Shown one piece after another: positions 1 through 54,745 of a stretch of DNA of 64,000 nucleotides; positions within the stretch are counted from its first letter, which is position 1; each line of letters begins with the position of its first letter. The translations under genes were made by a program, and so were the position numbers. Under the pieces are notes generated by a model. The model was not told the origin of the DNA. It ran no database searches and was given only the letters and a program-made list of their open reading frames with translations. Origin of the DNA: Ulva prolifera (lineage: Eukaryota > Chlorophyta > Ulvophyceae > Ulvales > Ulvaceae); the NCBI GenBank assembly GCA_023078555.1, contig CM041196.1, positions 10,868,985 through 10,932,984 on the forward strand. The letters run 5' to 3'.

Positions 1-145
1 TTCGACCTCCAGCACCTCAGTCGAGATGACCAACTTAGTGACGCACGTAACGGTCCTTGTTGCTTGTGCTGTGTTTGTGGAGGCCCGTTCTCTCTTCAGA
101 AACACTTCACCGTCGTCGCCAGGCCTCGCTGGCGCGATGTCCCGC

Positions 146-179
146 CAGAAAGAATGATCATCGATGATCATTCTTTCTG
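146..179. repeat. 34-bp perfect palindrome
   Basis: The 17 bases 146-162 are followed directly by their exact reverse complement (163-179), with the centre at ATCGAT. No gene was recognised around it. It could extrude as a cruciform or bind a dimeric protein, but nothing in the sequence decides this. Confidence 0.85.
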
Positions 180-650
180 CAGCATACATCTCATCAACTG
201 GCAATGCGCATTGCAATTCGTTCAGCAATTTCCGTCTGGGATATTTGATCCAGTCCAGGACGAGCTGTGGAGAGCATTGCCATCGTGAGGTAAAGTTTTA
301 TGCATTGCTTGCGTTGCTAGGATGGAATACCTGGCACAGGAATCCCAGGGATCGATTTGATCCTGAAGTAATTCATATTTCTCAGAGTGCACAGCAGAGT
401 GAGGTCAGAGTCAAATGCTCACAGCAGTACACAAACATGTGACATCAGGCACCATGCTGGCAAAAGGGTAGGCGTCAAACATAAAGCAGATGTGGAGAAG
501 CGGACCAAGGAATTCTTCATGCACCTATTAGCTGCAGGCCAACACACATGTGGTTTGCTGTGGGTGGGTGCCATAGCATTGCATCTTCCAACAGACCGTC
601 TGACATGCACTTGCAGTCATGCATTGCCAACACAGTGGAAAGTTCGTAAT

Positions 651-1946
651 CTAGGCGGAGGCCAGACATGATGCTCTAGGCTGCCCTCTATGGTCAGATC
701 TTGCACAACAATGGCATGTGTGCATGTCTGCTTGATGTCCATAGACATCCACACGGGTGCGCAGGACGCGTACAGACGCATCCATGCTAGCAAAAATCAT
801 AGGAGTTATGACGTCCGTGAGGTTGGCACAAGTGGCATCAAGCTTTTGCACTGCTTCCTGCACCTGTGTCAGTGTCCGTGTACCGCAACCAACAGCAAGT
901 ATTTGGCGCTCACCAAACAGGTCAGTCCACCGTGGCTGCAGAAACCGCCACATATACTCAGAATCATGTACCTACACTTATTAACTGTGCTTGAGGACAG
1001 CCAAATTTCAGTGCTGCTGTCACCTCTCCTAACATTGGCCAATGCGACTACGGCACTCCTGCATTGACGAAGACGTGAAGAGGCATCCGTGCTGTTGAAA
1101 TCTTGATTACTTCCTTGCGCTGTCTTGCTGCACTTTTGTACTCGCTTCGAGGCCGCAGAGTTGCACTGAATCGTTGGACGATGTTGCAACACTGTGGGTG
1201 TAACCATCGCTGAATATTGAAGTTCTGAGACAAAAGAACTATGATTTCAAGGTAATGGAACAACAACAATACCCCTTGGAATTCGCAAGGGGGATCACGA
1301 GCCCGGCGCTTGCACGGGGCGCGGCCTTCCGACGCACGTTTGCCAGGTTTCTGCCCGCGTGTCCGGGAGGCAACAAAACGGTACAGGATAGTAGCAAGAC
1401 CCTGAATAGACCACGAAGCGCTCCAGGCTAGAATAAAGTGGGTGCTCCGTGCAAACGGCGTTGTGTCCTGAGATGGAAAAATGCAGCAGCGAAGAGCACG
1501 GCAATAGTACCATGTGCAGGTGGCGTAATGTTGATCCTAGCAAACCTTTGGTGGTGCACTACTGAGTTCGCGTCACGATTCAGGCAACGTGCGCATGAGC
1601 TCTTGCGGACTGAGCAGGCGACCAGGTGGGAGGTATTCGCCTGGAGTGCCACAACGTGCGGGCCGCGCCACAGCATACAGATCATATTATCACATCTTGC
1701 AGGCGAACAGCATATAGCATGACCGGGCCCCAGTAGTGGCGTGTCATGACGAGACAGCATTCTTTGCGCTTGCGTGGCGAAAGTGGCGTCCAAGGCCGGC
1801 GTGCGAGGTGACTGCCAATCGGTGATGGCGGGCATTCTACAGGATGCAAAGACGTCACAGATAAAGTAGCAAGGCAGTACGTCACACCAACGCACTCGCA
1901 TGCAGGTGACCCAGTGACCTGGCAGTCTCAATTCCCCGGCGCGCAC
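651..1946 (-). CDS. unidentified protein-coding segments (minus strand)
   Basis: Three minus-strand open stretches read like protein rather than noise: 1428-1946, 1048-1269 and 651-953. The last contains QVQEAVQKLDATCANL, a helix-like run, and ends with a Cys/His cluster (HTCHCCARSDH). The first has a CCSPARCDNMICM cysteine group and a hydrophobic stretch near its end. Codon choice is mixed rather than GC3-extreme, like the first exons of the recognised genes here. I could not join the pieces with confident splice sites, so they may be exons of one gene or of two. No family was recognised. Confidence 0.35.
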
Positions 1947-2389
1947 ACAGCATCACTCCCTTGTCGGCCGCTGCCCCCAGCTTCATGAGCTGTCACATGC
2001 CCCTTCATTGATTTAATAGCCTATTGTTGCCCTCTGAGCACCGCTTTGAGCTCATGAACCGGTGTGCCCCTTTCAGGACCCCGCGTGATCGTAGGCTTCG
2101 ATGACAGCGCGAGCCTCATGACATCAACTCAGGCCACCGCTGCACCTGAAGGCATTTTCACACAGATACTGTTTACGAGGAGTGCAATGCTCGACACTGC
2201 ATGTGTATCTGCCAGACCAGGCGCGCACAGCACTGGCGCGCCCACTCATGCGCCCAGCCAGTGCCTGTACAGCAACGGATTGACGGCTGCGATACAATGT
2301 TATACATTGTGTATGTATGAGACTCTGCTGTGAGCATAGCTGCAGCGCCCGCCCGCTAGGCGTGCCTGCCCTATCCTGCGTTTGACCAC
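1947..2389. other. no gene seen
   Basis: This is intergenic sequence upstream of the nuclease gene, presumably holding its promoter and 5' leader. No clear TATA box or repeat was recognised. Confidence 0.4.
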
Positions 2390-5300
2390 ATGTCTCCGGG
2401 GCACAGCGAGCAGCTGCCCGTACAACTCAACAACAGCTCCGTCCTACGCAGGCTTCCAGCTAGTCTATCCGACCCAGCTATGGAGCCGCTCCACGCTCGG
2501 GGCCGCGGCTCCAGCACACCAGCTGTCTCCACATCCGCCCTGATGCGCTCCAGGCTGCACCAGCTCACATCCGGAGCGTCCATATGCACCTCCCCACTCG
2601 AGCCACACTCCGGCCTCCACCAGCCTTCTCCTGTCTCCACTCCGCCGCCATCCGACACCCTTCATGCCCCCCCGGCCCCGGAGACCTCCCCGCTCGGCCC
2701 CCTCGCTGCCCTCCCCATATCCGCAGCGATCATCGCCGCTGCAGCGAGCGCCGCTCTCGCGCTGCAAGCCGAACCGGCGATCGCGGAGACGCTGACCGGA
2801 GCGCCGCGGGTCGTTGACGGCGACACGCTGGAGTTTGGCTCGGAGCGCGTGCGGCTGTACGGCGTCGATGCGCCGGAGTCGAAGCAGAGCTGCAAGGACC
2901 GCTCCGGCAAAGACTTCCCCTGCGGTGCGCCTCGTCCATCACCCCGCCAGGGACACCGCGGCCGCTGCGCTGGCAGCTGAGCTGCTATGAGAGATGAACA
3001 CGACCTCGCCATGCGACCTGCCCGTGTGGCAGTGCGGCCGCTGCGGCCTCAGTCCGGACCATTGCGCCATCGCACGGCCGTGGCGAGCAACTAGGCCCCA
3101 ACGTTTACAATTATCCTGTAGTACTGCGTGTCGCGTCGACCTCTCGGCCCCCAGCACGGCAGCGCAGCTGCCGGGCACTGCGCCCCTGCGGCTGGGCTGC
3201 TCTGCGCCCGTGAGCACAGCCCAGGCTCGAGCGCCGGGCCTGCGGGTTTGCGGAGGCTGAGTTATAGAGCAGACAAACACCTGTGGCCATCCCATCTTGG
3301 GGGTGCAGTTTCTGAGGACGTTTCCTGGCCGTCCCAGGCAACGAGGCGCTTCCTTGTGCCTCAGCGGGTGGGCCGGGCCTGCGTCGCCTCGGGGTGTGCA
3401 CCATGTGTGCCGTTCTGGCGGCCAGCTGCATGCTGACAGCGCTGCCGCAGCAATGTGCCCCGGGGACGGCGTGACACTACGGCTCGCGGCGGCTGTCTGC
3501 CCCCAGCAGACACTCCCCCCCACCGCCTGTGGCGTAGGCGGCGCCCGCCGCCGGCACAATGACCTCAGCCTCCGCCCCTCACTCACCGGAATCCACCACA
3601 CTTCTGCAGCCGACACGCGCACGCATGTGGCACAGAACACACACCCGTAGAGCCACACGCGCATCCACTCACATGCATGGCACACATGCATGCTGCGCAT
3701 GCAGGCGTCGTCGCGAAGGACGACCTCGTGAAGCACATCGCCGGGCGGCCGGTGTCGTGCGAGGTGAAGAACAAGGACCAGTACGGGCGCAACGTAAGTG
3801 TGTGCGTTGTGGACGGCGGCGGGCTGCGCGGCGGCCGGGAGGACCTCAACGGCTGGCTCGTGGCGCAGGGCGACGCGGTGGCGTACACGCAGTACTCAAA
3901 GGACTACGTCGCGGCGGAGCAGCAGGCCAAGGCCGAGCGCCGGGTGCGCGTCCTGGCACCCTCTCTGTCGATATTTATCGGGTACATGTGGCAATCCAGT
4001 GGTATGGCCGCTACACCACTGGACCCTTGCACATCGCGACGTGCAAGGGTCCAGTGGTGTAGCGGCCATATCACTGGATTGCCACATGCCCACCACCACC
4101 ATCGCCCTTCCGAGATCGTCATCTTTGGAATGGAACCGCTTGTGTCTCCAGCGCCCCGTAGCATGCTTCGGTGCTCTGCAACGCCATGGCCCAGGTCTTC
4201 GAGAATTGTTTCATACAGAAGTAGTACAAACTTGGAGAGCCCGGGCCGGTGCATGGCAGAGCACCGGATCAGCGGACACGGCGAGAGTGTTCAACCAGTG
4301 TTGGGTCGCTGTGCAGTTTTTTCCAGGACTGCCACCCCAAAATCAGGCCTGAATATTCAGAATTGTTACATATGATCGGGCCCGACGACCCAACACTGCT
4401 CTCAATCCGCGGGACAAACTCGTCCCATGTACTTCGCGAGGTCCACATGTGCGTTGATAGGTGACAGCAGTTCTGCCATTGAGTATTTTTTTTTTACGAG
4501 TATTGTATGAATGGTCTGCGACCGCGCTGCCGTGTGAAACCGCCTGAAACAGAGTTGCGCAAGCACCCGCCATTGCATGGCAGATCACTGGCACGGAATC
4601 CGCGTTGCCATCGTATCAGTGCACGTTGTGTTGGTTGAGCACAGCCTCGCAGCATGTACAGCAGCACGCGTGGCAATCCAGTGGTTCAACGGCCATATCA
4701 CCGGGTTGCCACAGCACGCCCAGAGGACTGCAGGGCAGCCCACCCGCCCACTTTGTACGTTCGCCGCTTTACTTAGCTTGTCCTCACCCTCGACCACCCT
4801 GGGCACGGCTGCCATATGCACTCCTCCCATCAGAGCACTCATAACCTGCCCACACCGGCTCATGGACGCCGGGGGCGAAAGGATCCTCATGCCGCTGTGT
4901 GCTGTGTGCTGTGCATGGTGGAGGCGCATGGCGTGATGGGCCTGTGCCTGCGCGGCTTTAGTTGGAGGCTTATGGGCTCGCGGTGGGAGTGGTGGGAGAT
5001 TTGGATGACACTGATGGTCGTCTGTGGGGTACAGCGCAGTGACCCTGAGTTTACTGAGCCGAGGTGCTTGCATGTAAAGTAAAATAAATGTGAATGTGGA
5101 TGGCAGACGTACTGTGATACAAGAGTAAAGTCAGAGATGTGCAGAGGTGTTTCCAGCATAGTTGCACACTTGCCCACCATGTTCTGGCCATTGTGACCCG
5201 TATGTGCATGGGGCGCTCTTGAGGACACTTCAACCTGCACCTCAGGGCAGATTCTGCTGCCTCAGATTCTACTGCCTGAGCATAACCTGCAAGTACTCTG

Positions 5301-18205: not shown

Positions 18206-18329
18206 CATTCACCGGCAGGGGTGTGGTGCGCGCTCGTGCCCGGCCTGGTACCATGAATGAGTGAGTGGATTTGCGAGTGGGTTCCGAGAAACGTACGGCT
18301 CGATGCCCGGCCTCTGTCCTTTGTAACTA
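18206..18329 (+). mobile_element. 5'-truncated copy of the TTTGTAACTA retroelement
   Basis: Matches the end of the full-length element at 37370-37493: TCACCGGC.., GCTCGTGCCCGGCCT.., GTGAGTGGATTTGCG.., GCCCGGCCTCTGTCC then TTTGTAACTA. It is diverged from the 37 kb copy, so it is an older insertion. It lies just upstream of the bioF start. Confidence 0.75.
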
Positions 18330-21400: not shown

Positions 21401-24400
21401 GTGCTCGGGCCGGCGGGGGGCGGCACGGCGGAGCAGTCGGGGACGTGCGAAGCAATCGACGTGCACATCGGGACGCTCAGCAAGGCCTTCGGCACGCACG
21501 GCGGCTTCATCGCGTGCTCGGAGGAGATCAAGACGCTGCTGGTGAACTTTGGTCGGACGTATGTGTTCTCGACGGCGCTGCCGGCGCCGACGATCGCCGG
21601 CGCGCTGGCCTCCCTCGAGGTTGTCCGCAAGTGCGCCCCGGCCTCTCCTCGCTCTCTCTCCGCCCCCCCCTTCACCTGTGAACAGCAAACAACAAATAAA
21701 TACAACCGTGGATGCTCCTTGTGTCACATGCCGCCGACGGGGCAGTTGTTTCATTGCCTGATCATGTCAAGCGGTGGCAAGTCCAGTCGTGCCGCCAGGA
21801 GTGGAGTCCGCCTCTGGATGAGAGGGGAGACGGTAGGGTCAATGGTCCTGTGACTGTGCATAGCAAGGCTCAGCAGTGGGTGCCGGGTGTGAGGTGTAGA
21901 AGCTGTGCTCCCTGTTCTTCCCCTGGGAGATGCAGATGTGGTATGCCTGGACTCCCAGGCATCACTAGGAACTCAGCCCTTTTCTGGCCTGATTGTACAG
22001 CATACACATGCCTTTGTTAGGTTCCACCTGCCTCATGCTGTCAGATGGATGCCATGATGGCAGCTTCAAATGAGGAGCTGGTGGAGATGATCCAGGATGC
22101 GTAGTGTCTGTGCAGCCTGGGTCATTATCTATTACAGCAGCTCATCTCATGTAGTCTGTGCCAGCTTGCCCTGATGGATGCTGTGCATTAGTGTGGCACT
22201 TGCTGCACCAAGTATGGTGTGCGGACAGAACAGAATACATCCAGATCCAGCTCAGAATTTTCCACATGCATAACATTACGACTGTCATGGCGTGCTGCAT
22301 GCATACATGACAAGCAGTTTCTCATGGAGTGTTTTTTTTTGTTACTTGCTGCTTCAGCTTGTGCACTGGGCTCATGAAACCCTAACAACGAAATGTGATT
22401 GAGGCTCACAACAGAGCCTTCTGACAGAGCTGTGCCATTTTTTGAACACAGGCAGCAGCCAGGGTGTTCTGTAGAGCGGAGCATGATGGACAGCCACGCT
22501 GTTGCAGGAGAAATGAGCCATGTTTTTAGAAGTTTAAGATACACAACATGTGTTTGCATGGTGCTATGGTGCCTCGCATTTCGGTGCCATGTGCAGTTGC
22601 AGGCAGCCTCGCAACCCTGTCTCCTCCTGTCTCCTCCTGTGGTGCATCGTTGTGTGGCAGGGACAAGCACTGCACAGGACCCTGCACAGGAACATAACAA
22701 GCCACAGGAGTCGGTGACGTCATCTTGTATCCGTATGGTCAGTGTGATGTGTGCATGTGACAGAACACAGACAGGGTAGGGGGTTGGGGGACAGGTATGT
22801 GCCACCCCTGTCACCACCAGATACCAGATAAACCAAATGGCATTCGAGCAGGCATAACGAGACCACGCTACAGGGGTATTAGCAGTGTTACATGGCAGCA
22901 CTTTCATGCCCGCTGGTAGCAAGGTGGGTAGATACCTACCCCAAGGCAGTCCTTGCTGCCCTGGCCACAGCTTCAGCATGTTGCATGCCTCAATTCTGAT
23001 ACAAATGGGGCAACATGAAGAATGAGGCAGCAGCGTGCTCAGTAGCGTGCTGCACGTCCAGTCTCTGCCTCACTGGTCTTGCTACTGAACATGACAGGCA
23101 GTTGTGCACCAGTGTTGGGTTGCTTTGCGGCATTTCCAGCGCTGTCACCCGGGAATCAGACCTTAATATACGGAACTGTTCTATGTGATCGGGCCCAATG
23201 ACCCAACACTATATGATACGTACTATGCACTGTACACATACTGTACACGTGGTGAACTGCGTGGAGCTCAGGCCGAGGTTGATCTCCAGCACAGATCTGT
23301 TCATCCATCCGGGACAACAATTTAAGTTCGACTTGTTCTACACATCTGATCCGCATGTCGCTTCCACAGTCATTCTGCCACATAGCCACAGCACAGGGCT
23401 TCGGAGATGTAGATGTTGGTCGGTGTGGGTGTGTGTGGCAATCCAGTGGTACAGCGGCCGTACCACTGGATTGCCACAGTGTTGAGGGACCCCTGCCAGG
23501 TGTTGGGAGCAGTGGGAGAACCCATGGTGCCCACCACAGCACGGCCCAGGATCACTGGGTGGCAATCCCACCGTGTGACACAGACATACACAACACACAG
23601 ACATACATGGACTCATATGCAGTCCTCAGGGGTGGCAGGCTGTAGGGGTGCCAGGAGTGGCAGCCTTGAGTGACAGATGCATGTATGATATGGTGGACAA
23701 ACACACATAGATCATGCAGTGAAGATATATCACTGGTTGCTACAGCATACTGTTGCTTTCTCACAGCTTGTGGGATTATTCTCCACTGTCCTAGCAGCGT
23801 GTGTCATGCTTGAAATTAAGAAAGACTTGCTGAAAGCAGTCTGGATGTGCTCTGAGGCGAATTCGGGCAGTGCACACAATGGTGTTGTGAACGAAAGTGT
23901 CTTGTGTCAAATATTGAGTTCATTTACAGCCGCTGACATTATACATTTATACATACATTGCGAGTGCCCGGCCTCTGTCCTTTGTAACTACATACATTGC
24001 GAATGTGTATACACTTATCCATGTATTGCGAGTGGATTCCAGTGGATTCCAGTAACCGGCCTCTGTCCTTTGTAAATATTGACATGCATAGAGAACTGGT
24101 GCCATGCCCATCCTCTGTCCTCGGTGAGTCCAATTGATACACGAACAGCTTGTGTAGCTAGTTCCTTGAGACCACTTAGCCTGCACAGCACTGTGCTTAC
24201 ATATGTTCGCATGAAATACATTCACCTGAACTGCAGGACAGTAGACTGCAGTAGCACCAGATGATGCCAAGTTCTCAGCACACAGAGAATTTCGCAGGCT
24301 CACCTGCGTCGCTGCAGGTGCCCTGTTCCAGTCGCACAGCTCAACTGCAGCACGCCACAGCACGGGCATCAAGCATGTGGTTCACGTTTCCTTTTGTGCA

Positions 24401-31023: not shown

Positions 31024-31300
31024 ATCGTTGTGAAATGCCCAAGCAAGGATGTAACAGCACCTGCTCCATTGCAAGGGCAGGCGCAGATACAGCAGGAGTC
31101 CCCTCCAGATCGCATGGCAACGGAACGTGTCTTAAGTTTGGGACGATGCGCTGCCCGCAGGGAGGTTGCTCCAGGCTGGTGGCCTCCAGCATGGCGTATG
31201 CCAGATGCCGGGGTACACAAACGCACTTTGTGTCGAACACCTCCTACTGGCAGTCATTTGAGGGCACTCGTGTCGATGCAGTGCATATGCCACAGCAGGT
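31024..31300 (+). CDS. cysteine-rich exon of an unidentified gene
   Basis: After an acceptor (TTAAACAG) the + strand reads RCEMPKQGCNSTCSIARAG, then GTCLKFGTMRCPQGGCSRLV, then QTHFVSNTSYWQSFEGTRVD, and ends at a consensus donor (CAGCAG|GTGAGT). At least seven cysteines suggest a secreted or disulfide/zinc-bound module. The retroelement array starts about 100 bp after the donor, so it may fill this gene's next intron or have cut the gene. No downstream exon was found. Confidence 0.4.
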
Positions 31301-31427
31301 GAGTGGGCCTCGCGTCCTTTGCTGTGCATTTATTGAATACAGATTTCGTCCCGGATTTCGGAGTTGTCAATGTCCAAATGGACACAGCTATGTAATCATG
31401 CATACATACATACATAGACACGGTGGC

Positions 31428-31456
31428 ATACATACATGCTCTGTCCTTTGTAACTA
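31428..31456 (+). mobile_element. 29-bp micro-insertion of the TTTGTAACTA retroelement
   Basis: The insert (ATACATACATGCTCTGTCC plus TTTGTAACTA) sits between two perfect 19-bp copies of CATACATAGACACGGTGGC (31409-31427 and 31457-31475). It is the first member of the array. Confidence 0.85.
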
Positions 31457-31475
31457 CATACATAGACACGGTGGC

Positions 31476-32386
31476 TTGTTATTATATTGATTATCGTCGT
31501 TCGTTTCTTCACTCCATAGCTCGGGTCGGTCGTGCTGCGGTGCACGGCCGGCTCGTAGTCGTTGATTTAAATGTCCATACTGCTGTCTGATTCTTTCGCG
31601 CTCGTTCGTTTCGTGTCGTCTCTGCTCTGCGCACCACAGGATTGGCACGCTCTGGCCCGACTCAGCTGTGACGGCATGTCTGCTACTCCTGCCGCTATGT
31701 CCCTTGGCGGCGAAGGTCATACGGTTGCACTACAAGTTATCACTTTAATATTGTGCGGCGTTTGGCTCGCTTCTGGGCATGGCGGATTGCCAGCATGCTC
31801 CGTTCTGCGGGTCGGCTTGGGGCGGTACCGGCGAGGCACACATGTCTGCATGTTGCCTTCCGTTGTCAGCGGTCGCGCGGACGAGGTTCAGCGAAGCTTT
31901 TCATCTAGGTTCACGTTTCAGTGGCGCCGCTATACCCTTTTATGGCGCCCTAGCGGCTTCGAGATGATCATGGCTTCAGCGGTCCCGCGTCCTGCTGCAC
32001 TGCTGCGTACAGCCAATTCTGTCGGCACCCAGCTGCTGCGTACAGGTTCCCAGTGTGGAAGTTATGATCCCATGTTCATCCGCTACGATACCCCGTTCTC
32101 TGAAAATTTGCGGTGCGTGAGGAGATGGTTTCCTGCTGGCTGTACGCCAGCGCTGTTTGCTGCAACGGCTTTGACGGTCATGCGACGATGGGCTGCGTGG
32201 TTGATGACTAGCTGCTTCCTTGTGAAGCTGGATGCCTGTGTTTTTTCTAATTGTGAAGACGCTTTTGAAGTTTCTCATGTGCAGTGCACTTGCCCGTAGT
32301 GGGTGTGCACTGGCCTGGTGAATGAGTGGATTTGCGTGTGAGTTCCTGGCAATGGCTCGGTGCCCGGCCTCTGTCCTTTGTAACTA
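31476..32386 (+). mobile_element. 911-bp non-autonomous retroelement, copy 1
   Basis: Begins TTGTTATTATATTGATTATC and ends in the shared tail GTGAGTTCCTGGCAATGGCT.. GCCCGGCCTCTGTCC TTTGTAACTA. Flanked by 15-bp CATAGACACGGTGGC (31461-31475 and 32387-32401). Its last approximately 70 bp match the autonomous element's end; the rest does not. It carries a 242-aa open frame at 31571-32299 (MSILLSDSFALVRFVSSLLC..) with no recognised domain and a His/Trp/Arg-rich sequence; this may be chance. It appears identical to copy 2. Confidence 0.8.
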
Positions 32387-32401
32387 CATAGACACGGTGG
32401 C

Positions 32402-33312
32402 TTGTTATTATATTGATTATCGTCGTTCGTTTCTTCACTCCATAGCTCGGGTCGGTCGTGCTGCGGTGCACGGCCGGCTCGTAGTCGTTGATTTAAATGT
32501 CCATACTGCTGTCTGATTCTTTCGCGCTCGTTCGTTTCGTGTCGTCTCTGCTCTGCGCACCACAGGATTGGCACGCTCTGGCCCGACTCAGCTGTGACGG
32601 CATGTCTGCTACTCCTGCCGCTATGTCCCTTGGCGGCGAAGGTCATACGGTTGCACTACAAGTTATCACTTTAATATTGTGCGGCGTTTGGCTCGCTTCT
32701 GGGCATGGCGGATTGCCAGCATGCTCCGTTCTGCGGGTCGGCTTGGGGCGGTACCGGCGAGGCACACATGTCTGCATGTTGCCTTCCGTTGTCAGCGGTC
32801 GCGCGGACGAGGTTCAGCGAAGCTTTTCATCTAGGTTCACGTTTCAGTGGCGCCGCTATACCCTTTTATGGCGCCCTAGCGGCTTCGAGATGATCATGGC
32901 TTCAGCGGTCCCGCGTCCTGCTGCACTGCTGCGTACAGCCAATTCTGTCGGCACCCAGCTGCTGCGTACAGGTTCCCAGTGTGGAAGTTATGATCCCATG
33001 TTCATCCGCTACGATACCCCGTTCTCTGAAAATTTGCGGTGCGTGAGGAGATGGTTTCCTGCTGGCTGTACGCCAGCGCTGTTTGCTGCAACGGCTTTGA
33101 CGGTCATGCGACGATGGGCTGCGTGGTTGATGACTAGCTGCTTCCTTGTGAAGCTGGATGCCTGTGTTTTTTCTAATTGTGAAGACGCTTTTGAAGTTTC
33201 TCATGTGCAGTGCACTTGCCCGTAGTGGGTGTGCACTGGCCTGGTGAATGAGTGGATTTGCGTGTGAGTTCCTGGCAATGGCTCGGTGCCCGGCCTCTGT
33301 CCTTTGTAACTA
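32402..33312 (+). mobile_element. 911-bp non-autonomous retroelement, copy 2
   Basis: Repeats copy 1 at a period of 926 bp (911 bp of element plus 15 bp of target). The 242-aa frames (31571-32299 and 32497-33225) translate identically. Either two successive insertions into the same target or an unequal-crossover duplication would explain this; the perfect identity shows it is recent. Confidence 0.8.
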
Positions 33313-33327
33313 CATACATACACATTA

Positions 33328-36300
33328 CATACAGACATACGTATCTTTGTCGTACGTCTGTCGTCTGTGCTGTGTCGTGGTCCCGATGTAGACGCATGCC
33401 AAAAGAACCCGGCTGCGGGAGGCAGCAAAAAGAAAACGAATAGGCCCTTAGTTGTGTTCTGTCGTCCGCTGTCGTGCAGCTGCAACGAATACGCGCGCCA
33501 GCTGCCAGTGTTCCGTCGTTCTGCAGCCCCACTAGAATGCCAGCGGACTAACCGCCAGTGGCCTGCAGCCTTGCCCATTTGGAACACCTAGATGTCTGTT
33601 GTATGTTTCGCCTGGCCTTCCTGGTGACCCGCTTGGCTGTGCAGCCGTCATGTCGGCGCGGGCCGCTGGCTGCCCGCGTGCCGTTGTCCGGCAGTCCCAC
33701 TGGCAATCCTGCGGACTAGCCGCAGGTGATCTGCAGATTTGATTCGTTAAAAGTGTTGTGTGTTTGTTGTTTTAGTTTTGTGCCGTCTGGCCGGTTCAAT
33801 GGCCCGTTAGACCGCACCGTTAGTGTGTCCGCTTTCAGCGGAACGAGTCCCTGCGTATGAGCTTTCAGTGTCCATATGACGGATGCAGCGCTAGTCTCTC
33901 CTCCCATTCAAGTCTGTTCACCCACATCCGAGGAATCCATCGCGACGGGCCGAGGCTGCCTACTGCGAAGCTGCACGAACTCAATGCCGCGTACTGCTCT
34001 CACTGTGGCATATTCGGCTCCACCAAGACCCCTAAGGCGCATAAATGTGTGGGAGGTCAGAACAGGAGCTTGAGGTCAGGTCACTGCGTGCTGCCCGCCA
34101 CACATCCGGCCCGACAGCCCGCCCCAGCCCAACCCGCCCCAGCCCAGCCCGCCCCAGCCCAGCCCGCCCAGCCGCAGCCCGCCCAGCCGCAGCCTGCCCA
34201 GCCTGCCCAGCCGCACCCCCATCAGCCACCCCGTCACTTCACCGAAGCCCCCGCCGCCGCCCACAACACCGCCCAGCCCAGGCCCTCCCCGAAGGTCCCG
34301 GACACCGTCCATCCGGAGTTCGGCGACGCAACGGCCGAGCTCCTCAGAGATTTCAACGATGCCAGCGACGCGTCCAACATCGACGGAGCACGACTGGCCC
34401 TGGGCCGCGTCCTCGACTTCCCTGGTAAGGTTCTGTCGCTGAAGGGAGGGGACGGCACGGCGCGCCGCGCTCGTACATGCATCACGCTGTTCATGGACGG
34501 CGAGGAGCCCAGGCTGGCGGAGCCCACTCCGAGCCAGAAGCGCAGAATGAATCAGAACCAGGATCGCCGCCTGGCGGGCTCCGTCCACAGGTCACTGAGC
34601 GACGGTAATGTCCGCAAAGGCGCGGAGAAAGTGGAGGCGCCGCCCATCGCCAGGTACACCCCGGAAGTGCATGAGGCGCTGCGGCACCTGCATCCCGCAG
34701 AAGCGCTCCCCCCCGACACCCAGCCCGCCGAGCCCGCGCCCCCGCTGCAAATCGACGAGGCGACGCTCCGCGCACTGCTCGACAAGCTGCCGAAGGGCAG
34801 CGGCCCAGGCCTGTCGGGGTGGACGTATGAGCACATCCGGGCTGCTGGCACGGCCTCCACGGCCGCATTCACGGAGATTCACCGCTTCGTGAACGCGGCC
34901 CTCGCCGGCCGGCTGCCACACCTCCCGCGCTTGCTGGACTGCCGCCTCCTCCCGCAGGAGAAGCCACAGGGAGGCGTCCGCCCTATCGCCATTGCAGAGA
35001 CGTGGCAGCGCCTGGTAAGCCTGTGCGCCATGACCCTGTGCAGTGGCCTGGGTGCCTCCCTCGCGCCGCTGCAGGTGGGGGTCGGGGTGCCAGGGGGCGC
35101 GCAGAACCTGGGCCATGCTGCGCGCGCCGTGCTGCAAGCGTGGGACGATGTCGTGCTTGTGCAGCTGGACTGGAAGAATGCATTCAACATGATGTCCCGT
35201 GCAGCCATCTTGGAGGCCGTTGCGTCTCACAAGCCTGCGCTGCTGCCCTTCGCCACCATGCTTTACAGGTTCCCCGCAAATCTCTACATCGAAGGCGCAC
35301 CGCCCGGCACCGCTGCAATCACGTCGCAGCGCGGCGTGCGTCAAGGCGACCCCATCAGCCCGCTGCTCTTCGCCCTGGCCCTCCAGGGCCCCCTCCAGGC
35401 AGTGCAGGCCCAGCACCAGCCGCCCGGGAGGGAGGTCACGGCCGCCCTCATGGCGTATCATGACGACTGCACCATCGCCGGGCAGCGCGTGGACGCCGCC
35501 GCCGCATTCCGTGCGCTGGTCTCGGCAGCAGAGCCCCTCGGGCTGGAGCCCCAGCTGCACAAGTGCACGGCCTACTCGCGCGACCCCCAGCATGCGGGAT
35601 CCGTCGCGGCCGCGCTCGGCATAACGCATGCCACGGAGGGCACCGTCATCACCGGCACGCCCATCGGCACCCCGGCGTTCGAGTCGGCGCACGCGGAAGC
35701 GACGGCCGACAAGGTGTGCGCCACCATCGAAAAGATGATGCGCTTGCCCCTGAAAGCGCAAGACCAGTTCTTGCTGCTCACGATGTCCTGCCAACGCCGT
35801 ATGCTGCACTACGCCAGGGCGGTGCCGTGGGCGCACATTTCCGATCACATGCGCCGGACGGAGGCGTCCGTCCTGGCTGCGGTGAATGAAATCATGCGCG
35901 TCCCGCGGGACGACACTCGTGCGGCCGCACAAGCCGTCCTTCCAGCGCGCCTCGGAGGCCTGGGCGTCACGTCCACGCCGCAGGAGGTCGCGGACGGAGC
36001 GTACCTCGCTGCGGCGGCGGTGAGCCAAAAGGCGTTCGCAGGAGGCCCCGAGTGCATGCAGCCGTACCGGGGGCCGCACGGGCAACAATTGCAGGAAACC
36101 TGGCAGGCCCTCAACGTCGCTCAGCAGCTCCATCCGGAGCTGCCCGGGCCGGCGAGCGGCGACACCATCGCCAAGGTGTTACCTGGTATGCAGCAGCGTA
36201 TCACAAAGTTGGTTGCCCTGCGCCGCCGGGCAGCTCTGCTTGCCAGCCATGACGTCGCCACGCTCGAGGGTGCATGCAACTTGGCACGGCTTCGCAGCTG

Positions 36301-37493
36301 TGCTTGCCGTGCAGCCACCCTTTGGTTGAGCACCCTGCCGCTCTCCCAGGCGCTGCGCATGACTGACATTGAGTTCATGTTGTGCATCAGGTATCTCCTG
36401 GGCATGTCCCCAGCCCCTCCCAATGCGGTCGGCTCGCGCTGCGAATGTGGCACTCTCATACAGCCGCATGATCTCGATCACGCGATGAATTGCACACACA
36501 ATGCGGGGACCTGGACTTCGCGCCACAATATCGTTGAAAAACAATGGCGCGAGATCGGGTCCCACGCGTGTGTGGCATCCACGCGCATCCCGCGCACAGC
36601 GCCGTTCGTCCGCGCGCGGCTCGCGGCCGCATCGAGGCAGATCCATGCTGGCCCGTTGGGCCCGCCCCCCCCTGCTCCGCCCCAGCCCGCCTCCCAGGTC
36701 GCGGGCCCTTCGCGTGGGGCAGCCTTGCCCGCGGCGCCGATGCCTGCAGCCCCGCCGCCGCCGCCGACCGCGCGCGCGGACGAGGCGCCGGCACCTACGC
36801 CTGCTCCGGCCGCCGACGCCGATGCTGGACACAGCGCCCACATGGGGCGCCACGCGCCAGACGCAGCGCAGGCTGCGGCCCTGGCGGCGGCGGCGGCGCC
36901 GGGTGGTCAGGATCCAGCGGGGCCTGGGGAGCAGGCCGCTGCCGCGCAGGCAACGGCGCTGGATGAGGTGTTCAGGGCAGTGGCCCAGGAGAAACTGGGG
37001 GACATCATGTTTATGCCGCCGGGCGACCCTTTGTGCATAGGAGATGTGTCGGTTGTGAACCCCTGTGCTGGTTCCTATTGCGGCCGTGCGGCCCGCGAGG
37101 ACGGGGGTGCTGCGGAGACGCGGGACGTGCAGAAACGCACTGCTTATCGTTTGTACGACCCTGATGCGTATAGTTTCGTGCCGTTGTCGCATGAGACGCA
37201 TGGTCGCTTGGGGCGGCCTGCCATGAATCACTTGAATCGGCTGGCGGAGGTTGCGTCTCGGTGTGGTAAGGTGAACCGTGCTTTGTTTGTGACGAATGCT
37301 CTGCGCCGGTTGAGTGTGGCGTTGTGCAAGGGGAATGCTCTTGTGCTCCGTGCGGGGCTTCAATCTTTGGCTGGCATCACCGGCCGCGCTGTGGTACGTG
37401 CTCGTGCCCGGCCTAGTGCCATGACTGCGTGAGTGGATTTGCGTGTGTATTCCTGGCAACGGCTCGCTGCCCGGCCTCTGTCCTTTGTAACTA
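33328..37493 (+). mobile_element. full-length non-LTR retrotransposon with restriction-like endonuclease
   Basis: About 4.17 kb, bounded by the 11-bp target duplication CATACACATTA (33317-33327 and 37494-37504). It has a 530-bp 5' leader, one ORF (33857-37432) and a short 3' UTR ending TTTGTAACTA, without a poly(A) tail. It is inserted immediately downstream of the second 911-bp unit. ORF, boundaries and duplication are all intact, so it may be a recent and potentially active insertion (inference). The single ORF with a C-terminal endonuclease places it with the R2/NeSL/CRE-type lineages and not with L1. Confidence 0.88.
33857..37432 (+). CDS. retrotransposon ORF: zinc finger, reverse transcriptase, RLE endonuclease
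   Basis: 1,191 aa, uninterrupted. The N-terminus has a C2H2 finger (CPYDGC..HIRGIH, residues 5-28) and a second Cys/His group (YCSHCG..HKC). A Pro/Ala/Gln repeat (PAPAQPAPAQPAQPQ) covers about 90-130. Reverse-transcriptase motifs: RPIAIAETWQRL (about 375), QLDWKNAFN (catalytic Asp, about 435), RQGDPISPLLFALAL (about 494) and AYHDDCTIAG (about 534; the usual YADD is YHDD). A zinc knuckle CECG..HDLDHAMNC lies near 861. The restriction-like endonuclease follows: IGDVSVVNP (about 1061), then RDVQKRTAYRLYD and FVPLSHETHGRLG. An Ala/Pro-rich linker (about 935-1045) separates knuckle and endonuclease. It performs target-primed reverse transcription. The next ATG choices would lose the finger, so 33857 is preferred. 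Confidence 0.92.
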   Translation: MSFQCPYDGCSASLSSHSSLFTHIRGIHRDGPRLPTAKLHELNAAYCSHCGIFGSTKTPKAHKCVGGQNRSLRSGHCVLPATHPARQPAPAQPAPAQPAPAQPAQPQPAQPQPAQPAQPHPHQPPRHFTEAPAAAHNTAQPRPSPKVPDTVHPEFGDATAELLRDFNDASDASNIDGARLALGRVLDFPGKVLSLKGGDGTARRARTCITLFMDGEEPRLAEPTPSQKRRMNQNQDRRLAGSVHRSLSDGNVRKGAEKVEAPPIARYTPEVHEALRHLHPAEALPPDTQPAEPAPPLQIDEATLRALLDKLPKGSGPGLSGWTYEHIRAAGTASTAAFTEIHRFVNAALAGRLPHLPRLLDCRLLPQEKPQGGVRPIAIAETWQRLVSLCAMTLCSGLGASLAPLQVGVGVPGGAQNLGHAARAVLQAWDDVVLVQLDWKNAFNMMSRAAILEAVASHKPALLPFATMLYRFPANLYIEGAPPGTAAITSQRGVRQGDPISPLLFALALQGPLQAVQAQHQPPGREVTAALMAYHDDCTIAGQRVDAAAAFRALVSAAEPLGLEPQLHKCTAYSRDPQHAGSVAAALGITHATEGTVITGTPIGTPAFESAHAEATADKVCATIEKMMRLPLKAQDQFLLLTMSCQRRMLHYARAVPWAHISDHMRRTEASVLAAVNEIMRVPRDDTRAAAQAVLPARLGGLGVTSTPQEVADGAYLAAAAVSQKAFAGGPECMQPYRGPHGQQLQETWQALNVAQQLHPELPGPASGDTIAKVLPGMQQRITKLVALRRRAALLASHDVATLEGACNLARLRSCACRAATLWLSTLPLSQALRMTDIEFMLCIRYLLGMSPAPPNAVGSRCECGTLIQPHDLDHAMNCTHNAGTWTSRHNIVEKQWREIGSHACVASTRIPRTAPFVRARLAAASRQIHAGPLGPPPPAPPQPASQVAGPSRGAALPAAPMPAAPPPPPTARADEAPAPTPAPAADADAGHSAHMGRHAPDAAQAAALAAAAAPGGQDPAGPGEQAAAAQATALDEVFRAVAQEKLGDIMFMPPGDPLCIGDVSVVNPCAGSYCGRAAREDGGAAETRDVQKRTAYRLYDPDAYSFVPLSHETHGRLGRPAMNHLNRLAEVASRCGKVNRALFVTNALRRLSVALCKGNALVLRAGLQSLAGITGRAVVRARARPSAMTA

Positions 37494-37504
37494 CATACAC
37501 ATTA

Positions 37505-37663
37505 ATGCTCTTGTGCTCCGTGCGGGGCTTCAATCTTTGGCTGGCATCACCGGCCGAGCTGTGGTACGTGCTCGTGCCCGGCCTAGTGCCATGACTGCGT
37601 GAGTGGATTTGCGTGTGTATTCCTGGCAACGGCTCGCTGCCCGGCCTCTGTCCTTTGTAACTA
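37505..37663 (+). mobile_element. 5'-truncated tandem copy of the retrotransposon
   Basis: Starting at ATGCTCTTGTGCTCCGTGCG it repeats 37335-37493 almost exactly (one difference seen: CGCGCT versus CGAGCT). It lies head to tail directly after the full-length element's CATACACATTA. It is followed by CATACATACATACAG. Confidence 0.85.
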
Positions 37664-38634
37664 CATACATACATACAGATCGTAGCATGGCAGTCCGTCC
37701 CATGCCGAACCTGGAACTGGGCCAATCAACACTCCAGCCGCACCACAAGCACATCTTCAGACGCGCGATCAGAACGTCATCCTCCGGGTGGGTGCATGTA
37801 TGCTACAGCATGGGGCGTGTTGGCCGACAGGGGCGGGTTGGCACCTGTGGCCGCACGCCCATATCACAACCCAACACCAGCACCTTCACTTTCAGTCCTT
37901 TGACGCAACTACACACAACCCTGCAGCGTCACGGCCGCCCGGCTCTGTACAGAACCACAATGCACAGAATCATCTAGCACCTTTCCCTTCCAGCGCAGCC
38001 CCCCCCCCCCCCCCCCCCCCCCCCCCTTGTTTTCTGTAGTCTGATCCACCACTCGCAGGCAGTGCTGCCGACCCGTGGATCGGCGCCGCCAGGCAGACCC
38101 TTCCGCCCCATGCACGACATGCCCGCATCACACTGCAGCAGGCCCTGCGGGCCGCGCGACAGCGAGCCCGCTGGCTGGCCACGTGACAGCTGGCGCGGTG
38201 CGTGCATGCATGCATGAGGGCACTGATGAACACAGCTGGGAACGTCATCCGGTGCCTCGCCCCCCGACCGCTGTGGCCATGCAGCTGCCGCAGAGGGGCG
38301 CCCGACGGGCACCCGCTGTGGACGACAGCTGTCACGTCGGTTCAGACAGACAGGGGGCGGTGCGTGGAAGTGGACATGCGCCGTGGCCGGGAGATGACGT
38401 GACACATGCTCCTGCCTCTCATGCGTGCAGCCGTCCGCCGCAGCGGCAAACGCAGCCGCTGTACCGGGGACATCACAGCCGGCAGTCTGATAAGCACGGT
38501 TCGCAGCCTATCATGCGATCGTGCAGCTGCCGCTCCACCGTTGAGGGCTTGGGGTATAGGGTGACGTATGCATGTGTGACATGCATGCATTCTTACACAG
38601 CCGCATCCGTTCGCCTCGTAGCGCCGAGCGGCAC
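37664..38634. other. intergenic; C homopolymer at 37999-38026
   Basis: No gene recognised between the array and the 3' end of the pseudouridine synthase gene. It contains a 28-base C run. Confidence 0.45.
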
Positions 38635-41625
38635 CTAGCTATCCCCGGCAGACGCGGCGGCTGCGGCCTCCGGCGCCGCAGGCTGGGCCGCAGCGGCCGC
38701 TTTCTCTGCCTCCCGTGCAGCGCGCCGCTGCTCCACGTCAGCCACCCATTTGCGGTGCTCCTCCAGCCACGTCGCCGTGGCGGCGCGGTCCACCGCGATG
38801 TGGTCCAGAGACGCCGCCCACTCCCGCCACGACCCGGCGGAAGGGTCCAGAACCTTCGCGAGGCCCTCGGCGAGGGCGCCGGCCTCGAAGGCGGCGCGGC
38901 CGGTGCCGCCGCCGTCGCGCAGGGCGAGCTGCTCGCCGCTCGCGGCCACCGCCGGCGGCGTGGAGCTGCCGGGCTGCTGCTTGAACGGCCGGAACTCGTT
39001 CTCGGAGAGCACGAGGGATTCCGGCGGAGCGAGGGGGACCCTACAGTGCGCCACGGCTGCTCGTGGCCCAAACCGAAAAGAAAGGCTGCAATGGACTCCG
39101 CTGTGGCGCATGAACTAAACAGAGAATCAAAGGGGAGACGCGGGTGGCGTGGCAGACATCGCACGTCAACACAGGCACATGACCGCTGCCGGGCATTGTA
39201 TGGTCTAGTTCGCCTCCACGCCGCGACAGAGGGGAAACCACGTGCAATGCGATACACATCCAGAGGCACGGCGCAGGGTGCTGCGGTGCGAGTGGCGCAC
39301 GTGCACAGCGCGCTCATGCATAGCGACGGCTCCACATATTCCAGCGGCAGAGCGCCTCTGGCCACCGCGACCGACATGCCCACGAGGTGCCGGATCATGT
39401 TGAACATGAAGGACTCGCCGTGCACCGAGATCTTCACGGCGGGAACCCGGTCAGGCCCGAGGTACTCGATGTCGCCAGCCTCTAGCCTGCATGCGGAAAC
39501 GATGACCAATGACTGTTCCTGTTGATTGCACCACGAGCTCGGGCCAGTTCATGGCAGATCACTTTGACAGAGTGGGACAGGATCGCAGCCAAGCACACTC
39601 AACTCGAACACCCCGCTAGCACACCGTCCAGAAACGACAAAAACATCATGTGCTCATGGCGGATCCCCCCGGATCGCTGACTGGTTGTGAGTATCAGGCC
39701 TCTAGCCTGCGCCAGGTGGGGTGGCTTGGTGGGTAACGTCAATCCGATTATTGATGTGAAGGGGGCGATGGAGCACCGCACGTGGTTTGCGGGGCAGCAG
39801 CCCCCGCAAAAAGCAACAGAGAGCCTGGGGCCTGCTCTGCGTGGGTGGGCTATTAGGCGGCGCTGTGTGGCATGTGGCGCCGGGGCACCCTGGAGCACGC
39901 AACGGCACAGAACGGCACAGCACAGCACAGCGGCCCGCATGCATGCCGGGGCACCGCGGCATGACAGCGCACAGCATAACACGGCACAGCACAGCACAGC
40001 GGCCCGCATGCATGCCGGGGCACCGCGGCATGACAGCGCACAGCATAACACGGCACAGCACAGCACGGCGGCCCGCATGCATGCCGGGGCACCGCGGCAT
40101 GACAGCGCACAGCATAACACGGCACAGCACAGCACGGCGGCCCGCATGCATGCCGGGGCAGCGCCGGGGTGCGGAGACCACGCATCCCATAGAGAGATAC
40201 GGACGCAGCACAGCACAGCACAGCACAGCACAGCGGGGCGGGGCGGGGCGCGCACGTGTAGACGCGGCGCCAGTGCGCGCGGAAGACCTTGGAGCGCTCG
40301 ACGCCCTCCTGCGGCGGCTGCCACGCCGCCTGGAACGCAAACGGCTGCCAGCGCGGCCCAAACTCCTGCAGCAGCGCCGCCTTGGTCTCTGCGTCGACGC
40401 TCATCCACGGATCTGCAGCAGGGTGCGGCGCCGCTTTGTGCGTGCTACACCGTTCTACGCCGCTTGGATGCGTCGCGGTCTGTCAGGTGTGGCCGCTACG
40501 CTCCCAGCAGAACAATGCACGGCAGGGACGCCTGATACACCAGCAGCCCACCTGCGGTTCGCCAGGAGTTGTCGACCTCTGTAGCTGCCGCCGTGGCCTC
40601 GGCATGTTTGCCTTTGCCTCTGTCGCCAGGCCGCGGAGCGTCCTCGTCATCGCCGACGCACTCCTCCTCTGCCGCTGCGGCGGGGGCCGCATGAGTGGCC
40701 TCGGCGACGGCCACGGCCGCATCCGGCGAGGCCGCCGCGGCGGCCGGCGGCGGCTGGCCGCGGCCGCGCTTGCGCGACACCGCGCGCTGCGGCGTGTTCT
40801 TACTCGGGATGTAGCGTTGCCTACATGCGGGTCCCGCTGCTGCGTCTGTCTCAACAAAGGCAGGACAGCGCACTCACCTCCCTTGCATCAACACACACCC
40901 CCCAGGCCATATCCCATGCCGCCACACACAACCCACGCTAGCCATCTGTACCAGTCAAGGACAGGTGCACCGTCGCACACAGGATCACCTTCACTGCAGT
41001 GTCCAGAGCAGTGATCTACAACTTGCCGGTCTTCCCGCTTAAATAGACGATTTTCCCGGAATATCCGCCAGGACTGGAAAACACTCATGGGATTCGCCGC
41101 TGGAAACGGGCTGTCAGAGCCAACAGTCCCGTGCGCAGCTGGAACCTGTCCCTCTGCGCCGCAGAGCCGCTCGATGCTGCTTAAATCCGGTGGAAACCCG
41201 TCCGAGGAAAAAAGGCCTGGTACAGCACTGGTCCAGAGCGGAGCCCACCTCTTGGTGTAGTTGTGGAACGGCCGCTCCCCCACGAGACCCTGCAGCGCCG
41301 CCCGCAGCCGCCGCATCACCTCCGCGTTGTGCGCCGCGTCCGCGGCCCCCTCTCCGCCGTCCGCCGCAGTGCCGCGGAGGCCTAGCACGGCTGCAGGGAC
41401 GTGGTACTCGTACGCGCGGTTGATGCACATCGCGCGGCAGTTGAAGCTGTTGGACACGCGCTGCACCGAGAAGATGCGGATGTCTGCCGGGAGGTGCCTG
41501 CACGGTGCACGGTGCACGATCAGCGCAGCACGCAGCATGACGGCCTTGCGGCTGTGATATGTGGAGTGGGCGGCAAAGCGGGGCTGGCACGCCGGTCCGA
41601 GGCATGTGTCGGAGAGGCACAGGCG

Positions 41626-54451: not shown

Positions 54452-54745
54452 CAGGCACCCACGGACTGCCATGAATCACTTGAATCGGCTGGCGGAGGTT
54501 GCGTCTCGGTGTGGTAAGGTGAACCGTGCGTTGTTTGTGACGAATGCTCTGCGCCGGTTGAGTGTGGCGTTGTGCAAGGGGAATGCTCTTGTGCTCCGTG
54601 CGGGGCTTCAATCTTTAGCTGGCATCACCGGCCACAGTAGCTGTGGTACGTGCTCGTGCCCGGCCTAGTGCCATGACTGCGTGAGTGGATTTGCGTGTAC
54701 ATTCCTGGCAACGGCTCGCTGCCCGGCCTCTGTCCTTTGTAACTA
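54452..54745 (+). mobile_element. 5'-truncated retrotransposon copy with target duplication
   Basis: From CTGCCATGAATCACTTGAAT it matches the full-length element from 37218 to its end, TTTGTAACTA. It reads the same last ORF residues (NRALFVTNALRRLSVALCKG) with a small insertion after ATCACCGGCC. It is flanked by a perfect 10-bp CATCCGCAGC (54442-54451 and 54746-54755); about 15 non-matching bases sit at the 5' junction. Confidence 0.88.

Follow-up and report, generated by a model that had tools for sequence, protein, structure and literature searches.

How does a retroelement come to stand in a row of its own copies, all facing the same way? The question is posed by a head-to-tail array at positions 31409-37680 of the window, by which we mean the whole 64,000-nt stretch of the Ulva prolifera genome analyzed here (part of contig CM041196.1, hereafter C1, which is 12.7 Mb long in an assembly of 88.9 Mb and 44 contigs). 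We refer to the element family of the array as FamA and to a second long interspersed nuclear element (LINE) family as FamB. Head-to-tail arrays invite the reading that each copy inserted behind an existing end of its own family; the target duplications here suggest instead that one upstream site was used repeatedly. We consider it probable that FamA is a CATA-tract-specific non-long terminal repeat (non-LTR) element that re-uses a single upstream site, rebuilt by each duplication, and that the resulting arrays are newest-first and stand mostly behind FamB.

The FamA target and its supply

The genome contains 745 exact FamA 3′ ends (378 on the + strand and 367 on the − strand, compared to 0/0 for the reversed pattern), 635 of which are followed directly by CAT. 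FamA copies have this fixed 3′ end together with variable 5′ truncation and target duplications. Among the first 100 FamA ends on C1, 30 of the 99 neighbor spacings are 1 kb or less, compared to 0.9 expected, and 29 of these 30 join ends on the same strand. A first-pass annotation, made from the window alone, had pointed to target-directed, repeated and oriented insertion; these counts agree with it and show a strong enrichment of CATA. Similar arrays are found on C1 at 4.13, 4.49, 11.10 and 11.18 Mb. A 31-bp string from the 5′ region of FamA has 23 matches in the genome; 7/10 C1 copies carrying it start no more than 100 bp behind TTTGTAACTACATACA, and one more stands behind an exact FamB end (by position). 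The arrays that we read lie inside C1, and two common algal telomere repeats, searched for as (CCCTAAA)3 and (CCCTAAAA)3, were not found in the assembly.

The sequence was readable around 77 of the first 100 FamA ends on C1, and a target duplication was present at 50 of these. Over all loci, 54/87 ends showed a duplication, with a median of 10.5 bp and a range of 6-24 bp, 24 bp being the longest length tried; 21 of these 54 inserts are shorter than 100 bp. Taking the 23 sites that do not follow a FamA end and are not at a FamB end, we obtained a motif close to CATGCATA^CATACATA; most positions between -8 and +8 carry information. Judged by these sites, the FamA target is CATA tracts, with a site of about this form. 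Reversed-pattern counts for TACATACA and TACATACATACA are no control, since reversal gives the repeat again, shifted in phase.

FamB supplies such tracts. One FamB copy (positions 2-4282 of locus L041) is open over at least 1426 aa, in a frame that runs off the locus and matches an exonuclease/endonuclease/phosphatase domain (3.2e-15) and a reverse transcriptase (RT; 2.9e-24), placing an apurinic/apyrimidinic endonuclease (APE) and an RT in one frame. CATA repeats stand behind most of the FamB copies read that retain the TATGTAATCATG end, and the genome has 128 exact FamB ends. Over C1:1-11.2 Mb, a same-strand FamA end lies within 4.6 kb of 11/19 exact FamB ends, compared to a background of 2.6%. 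A FamB-like upstream flank is present at 15/49 non-nested FamA sites, and the share is higher at array founders (8/11) than at single insertions (7/38; p=0.0014, with founders assigned by hand). Arrays thus appear to stand mostly behind FamB because its CATA tails offer a rich supply of sites, and FamA would depend largely on the tail of another LINE family, a dependence of one LINE family on another that we describe here. As a separate observation, the FamB stop codon lies 5 nt before the 3′ end, within the terminal TATGTAATCATG, leaving almost no 3′ untranslated region ahead of the CATA tail.

The array in the window conforms to this pattern. A remnant of the FamB 3′ end, including the terminal TATGTAATCATG, occupies 31344-31400 (+ strand, as are all features of the array; a 62-bp alignment to the FamB 3′ end has 95% identity, and this end recurs at other loci). 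It is followed by a (CATA)4 tract at 31401-31416, into which the whole array presumably inserted. Neither feature figured in the first-pass annotation. By these alignments, the array stands on a FamB CATA tail.

Array layout and insertion order

We hypothesize that FamA nicks a short CATA-type tract at CATGCATA^CATACATA and primes its cDNA there; each copy would thus end in ...TAACTA, with the right half of the site directly after it. The nick would fall at the left edge of the ~10-bp duplication, and therefore insertion would rebuild the whole site at the upstream edge of the new copy (left half plus duplicated right half), with only a half site remaining after its 3′ end. A subsequent insertion would take the rebuilt site and push older copies downstream, and the outcome would be a head-to-tail array in one orientation, young on the 5′ side and old on the 3′ side. 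The upstream site would not be exhausted, as each duplication restores it, and arrays would then be ordered records of insertion. The corresponding rule for a site-specific element is that the duplication must include the right half of the site if arrays are to form. The motif, the duplications, the orientation, the FamB founder and the order in a few pairs are read from sequence; the strand nicked first and upstream growth as a general rule are presumed.

For the window, the proposed order of events is FamB tail, truncated copy, full element, unit 2, unit 1 and, last, a 29-bp fragment. The five insertions share the 3′ end CTCTGTCCTTTGTAACTA, are separated by spacers starting with CATA and carry five TTTGTAACTA ends, all on the + strand, starting at 31447, 32377, 33303, 37484 and 37654. 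This bears out the earlier reading of five insertions in one orientation. The whole window has 8 exact TTTGTAACTA ends, all on the + strand, compared to 0.01 expected. An assembly artefact is unlikely because the arrays vary in the number of copies, in where these are truncated and in their spacers. An Rfam scan of 31300-37700 gave no match near the gathering score.

The proposed oldest member is a 5′-truncated FamA copy of 160 bp (37504-37663), bounded on the right by the flank CATACATACATACAGA (37664-37679). Upstream of it lies the full FamA element of 4166 bp (33328-37493), between the left (33317-33327) and right (37494-37504) copies of the 11-bp duplication CATACACATTA; the last 5 bp of the right copy lie at the 5′ junction of the truncated copy. 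Next come two identical units, unit 2 at 32391-33312 and unit 1 at 31465-32386, at a spacing of 926 bp; the second may be a further insertion or a tandem duplication. The 29-bp fragment (31428-31456) consists of 11 bp of CATA-like filler and 18 bp of FamA end. It is flanked by a 19-bp duplication (31409-31427 and 31457-31475). The exact duplications of unit 2 (4 bp) and of the truncated copy (6 bp) are short as they stand.

The composition given in the first-pass annotation, a fragment, two identical units, one full-length element and a truncated copy, therefore holds, except that its unit length of 911 bp is best read as 922 bp. The difference is GACACGGTGGC, found at 31417-31427, 31465-31475 and 32391-32401. 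Joined to the unit start, it occurs three times in the genome, twice in this array and once ~285 kb away in a different array, where the copy stands after TAACTA+CATACATA. Because the two are joined in the other array as well, the preferred reading is that the unit begins with GACACGGTGGC. Only the last 64 bp of the units are shared with FamA (93.75% identity), with nothing else in common, and so they look like non-autonomous partners of FamA. The proposed target duplications fared unevenly as a result. CATACACATTA is genuine and belongs to the full element, CATAGACACGGTGGC consists of CATA followed by the start of the unit itself, and CATACATAGACACGGTGGC is genuinely duplicated around the fragment, yet 11 bp of it are the unit 5′ end.

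Order can be read from duplications in favorable cases only. After insertion, the arrangement is LEFT^R[element]TAACTA^R, with a full site upstream (LEFT^R) and a half site downstream (TAACTA^R). A later copy yields the same picture whichever of the two it enters, and therefore the order is readable only where a duplication extends past the older one. In an automatic test of 31 neighboring pairs, 6 discriminate; the upstream copy is the later one in 6/6, with 0 in the reverse order. Of these six, three involve identical units, which may be tandem duplications, and the 434k pair is weak owing to a mismatch in the older copy's duplication. The figure obtained with the upstream copy removed can gain from CATA repeats alone and is no independent proof for 10901371, 10906478 and 4491297.

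Four further pairs, picked by hand, agree that the upstream copy is later. In the window, the fragment's duplication takes in 11 bp of unit 1. The duplication of the 4.13-Mb full element takes in 7 bp of the next copy's start, and a 22-bp duplication at 11.18 Mb takes in filler of the next copy. In the array at locus L071 (copies A1 and A2), the downstream copy has an extra CATA in its 3′ flank that the reverse order does not give. A pair formed by a 140-bp copy and a unit, with 1 bp past the tract, was too weak and was left out of the count. In the window, the full element's CATACACATTA includes CATTA, a string that the right flank CATACATACATACAGA lacks but that the truncated copy has at its 5′ junction.

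Divergence from the reference copy rises from 5′ to 3′ in two arrays. The values are 1.0, 0.4, 0.7, 2.5, 4.8, 10.9, 5.1 and 5.9% over the eight ends of L071 (rho 0.86) and 0.9, 0.6, 1.8, 1.0, 5.0 and 4.2% over the six ends of the 4.13-Mb array (rho 0.83); combined, 0/5000 permutations reach this trend.

Several results weigh against the upstream re-use model. The order evidence is a small sample and partly hand-picked, and the L071 and 4.13-Mb arrays were picked for their spread. The 11.18-Mb array has no clear age trend. Across 36 neighboring pairs, at least one of which is not contiguous, there was no age direction, with the upstream copy younger in 16, the downstream copy younger in 13 and 7 ties; among 27 pairs taken singly, p<0.05 was reached with the upstream copy younger in 4 and the downstream copy younger in 2, one of these 2 being cut off by the locus edge. 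No clear duplication was seen at 27/77 readable ends. The motif model also fails to account for the strength of clustering, and with shorter motifs, own ends are used far above the motif prediction (18/50 compared to ~4%). Finally, 8/19 FamB ends have no FamA at all, while some tails hold 5-10 insertions. This uneven use of sites suggests that accessibility or local re-insertion would also have to act.

Competing explanations

The first-pass annotation had proposed that the enzyme recognizes and cleaves its own TAACTA|CATA junction, with arrays growing downstream behind existing ends. Of the alternatives, this one survives best, although we consider it unlikely. Of 75 readable ends among the first 100, 26 lie directly behind another FamA end, and a nick exactly at TAACTA^CATA fits 15/22 nested copies with a duplication. 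Under the general motif, own 3′ ends should receive only ~4% of insertions, compared to 18/50 if all nested copies are counted in this way; own-end insertions, if real, would far exceed chance. Taken alone, this gap could mean an attraction to own ends beyond the motif. It argues against own-end cutting, and is accounted for by the re-use model, only on the condition that the nested copies arose by renewed use of the upstream site.

Three observations speak against the junction. First, the upstream copy is later in every discriminating pair. Second, TAACTA is a poor fit to the left half of the site motif. Third, tracts are used similarly whatever their origin. We counted 74 tracts of (CATA)≥3 on C1 up to 11.2 Mb, of which 35 begin no more than 40 bp past a FamA end, 11 lie behind an exact FamB end and 28 are of other origin, some of these possibly being decayed FamB or FamA ends. 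A FamA end lies within 4.6 kb of 19/35, 7/11 and 11/28, respectively (own compared to other, p=0.31). Tract length at used sites is underestimated, since insertion splits the tract. In the window, moreover, downstream growth needs GACACGGTGGC to be host-derived, but another array also has it in front of this unit. On the insertion order and the tract occupancy, we rejected own-end recognition as the cause of the arrays, though the motif alone under-predicts clustering.

An unlikely extension is that FamA RNA carries its own target address. The poly(A) signal of chlorophytes, TGTAA, ends 3 nt upstream of the FamA terminus; such signals are usually found ~15-20 nt ahead of the cleavage site (PMC1868727). 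From the position of TGTAA, the RNA would therefore extend ~10-15 nt past the element and take in the CATACATA of the donor, which could pair with the nicked target and guide priming. If so, target preference would be passed from copy to copy, FamB tails would be parasitized and newest-first arrays would record insertion order.

The same signal gives some room to the idea that several copies arise in one event, with the RT jumping to RNAs that have read-through CATA 3′ ends and the spacers being RNA-derived, as FamA transcripts could carry CATA tails. Extra CATA-rich stretches at some full-length 5′ ends (loci L075 and L078) also fit. The spacers, however, are array-specific and repeat the duplication of their own array (e.g., CATACATAGT in L071), and divergence varies along two arrays, so that their members differ in age; we regard this explanation as very improbable. 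At L075 and L078, these stretches are variable and are accompanied by partial repeats of the element start, looking as if the RT had jumped between target and template.

Tandem duplication of single insertions at the DNA level, by unequal crossing-over or slippage, could explain the identical units 1 and 2 and a pair of 69-bp FamA copies with the same truncation and filler at L073 (C1:5289400-5290100), probably a true tandem duplication, but it cannot yield the differing truncation points (which vary from copy to copy in L071), subfamilies and lengths of most array members, is excluded for these and has very little chance of being the general route.

The FamA protein, related systems and further loci

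The full element in the window contains an open reading frame (ORF) of 1191 aa (33857-37432) with a Pfam RVT_1 match at residues 369-574 (8.3e-11). Its best matches among solved structures in the PDB are R2 retrotransposon proteins (1.1e-5). An N-terminal zf-C2H2 match is weak (E=0.52) and under the curated cut-off. The C-terminal 333 aa (residues 859-1191) gave no Pfam match and no PDB match. A motif recognized by eye makes this region a putative restriction-like endonuclease (RLE). An AlphaFold model computed without an alignment had a pLDDT of 38, too poor for a fold search. No match to Exo_endo_phos, the domain of an APE-type endonuclease, was found in the FamA ORF, compared to 3.2e-15 for FamB of the same genome. 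The endonuclease type, like target-primed reverse transcription, is what we infer from the family. No FamA relatives were found in viral contigs.

In its single ORF, its central RT nearest R2 among solved proteins and its defined target, FamA resembles the site-specific non-LTR elements of the RLE type (R2, R4/Dong, NeSL/Utopia/Togen, HERO and CRE). It differs in that its target is a CATA tract, often the tail of another LINE, on which arrays form, and its RLE and its clade are putative. One report describes an RLE-type layout of N-terminal fingers, RT and then a finger and the RLE, and includes microsatellites and transposons among the targets of such elements, Togen being (TG)n-specific (PMC4640811).

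Clusters of nested elements also occur in green algae as Zepp and Zepp-like LINEs (PMC3446292 and PMC8226300). As described there, Zepp-like elements belong to the L1 clade and form centromere-like clusters, whereas FamA yielded no APE domain and forms short, scattered arrays. A single telomeric or centromere-like cluster per chromosome would be expected of such elements; the contig C1 has several FamA arrays (4.13-11.2 Mb), with 26 of its 92 TTTGTAACTACATACA matches inside 0.47 Mb. In PMC3747384, Zepp is listed with (A)n 3′ repeats and green-algal L1 families with (CATA)n 3′ repeats (Table 3). FamB is like the latter in its APE and RT domains and in the CATA repeats behind its end; the likeness concerns FamB as host, and not the element that forms the array. 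Such L1 tails, together with the TGTAA ends, point to a green-algal genome. In MoTeR of Magnaporthe, array members are likewise parted by tracts of the target repeat, and insertion is into telomere repeats at the ends of chromosomes (PMC7367193), whereas that of FamA is an internal CATA tract.

Microsatellite-targeting RLE elements, nested algal LINE clusters and arrays parted by target tracts are thus already known. Among the titles that our literature searches listed, none describes the present target, arrays that grow upstream or a LINE that targets the tetranucleotide tail of another LINE with growth at the upstream edge as read from overlapping duplications, which is weak evidence of novelty.

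El-Sawy and Deininger reportedly described tandem Alu insertions in which the A-tail of the older element is a target for more insertions. The tail there belongs to the same kind of element, whereas FamA mainly uses that of another family.

Some further loci are of note. The region C1:10.83-11.30 Mb, which includes the array of the window, contains 26 of the 92 C1 TTTGTAACTACATACA matches within 0.47 Mb and is perhaps pericentromeric or insertion-tolerant. Six same-strand TTTGTAACTACATACA matches in 3.2 kb mark another array at C2:911704-914883. At C1:1731244-1736244, a FamA copy lies in a (TA)n microsatellite, not in CATA. Elsewhere in the window, a 69-bp tandem repeat of 3.7 copies occupies 39912-40164 and is unrelated to FamA as far as seen. 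The FamA end at 18320-18329 is diverged (83% over 121 bp) and has no CAT after it, and the one at 54736-54745 belongs to an insert of ~294 bp with a 10-bp duplication. A 27-bp FamA insert at 23964-23990 has a clear 12-bp duplication, CATACATTGCGA, and such tiny inserts are common.

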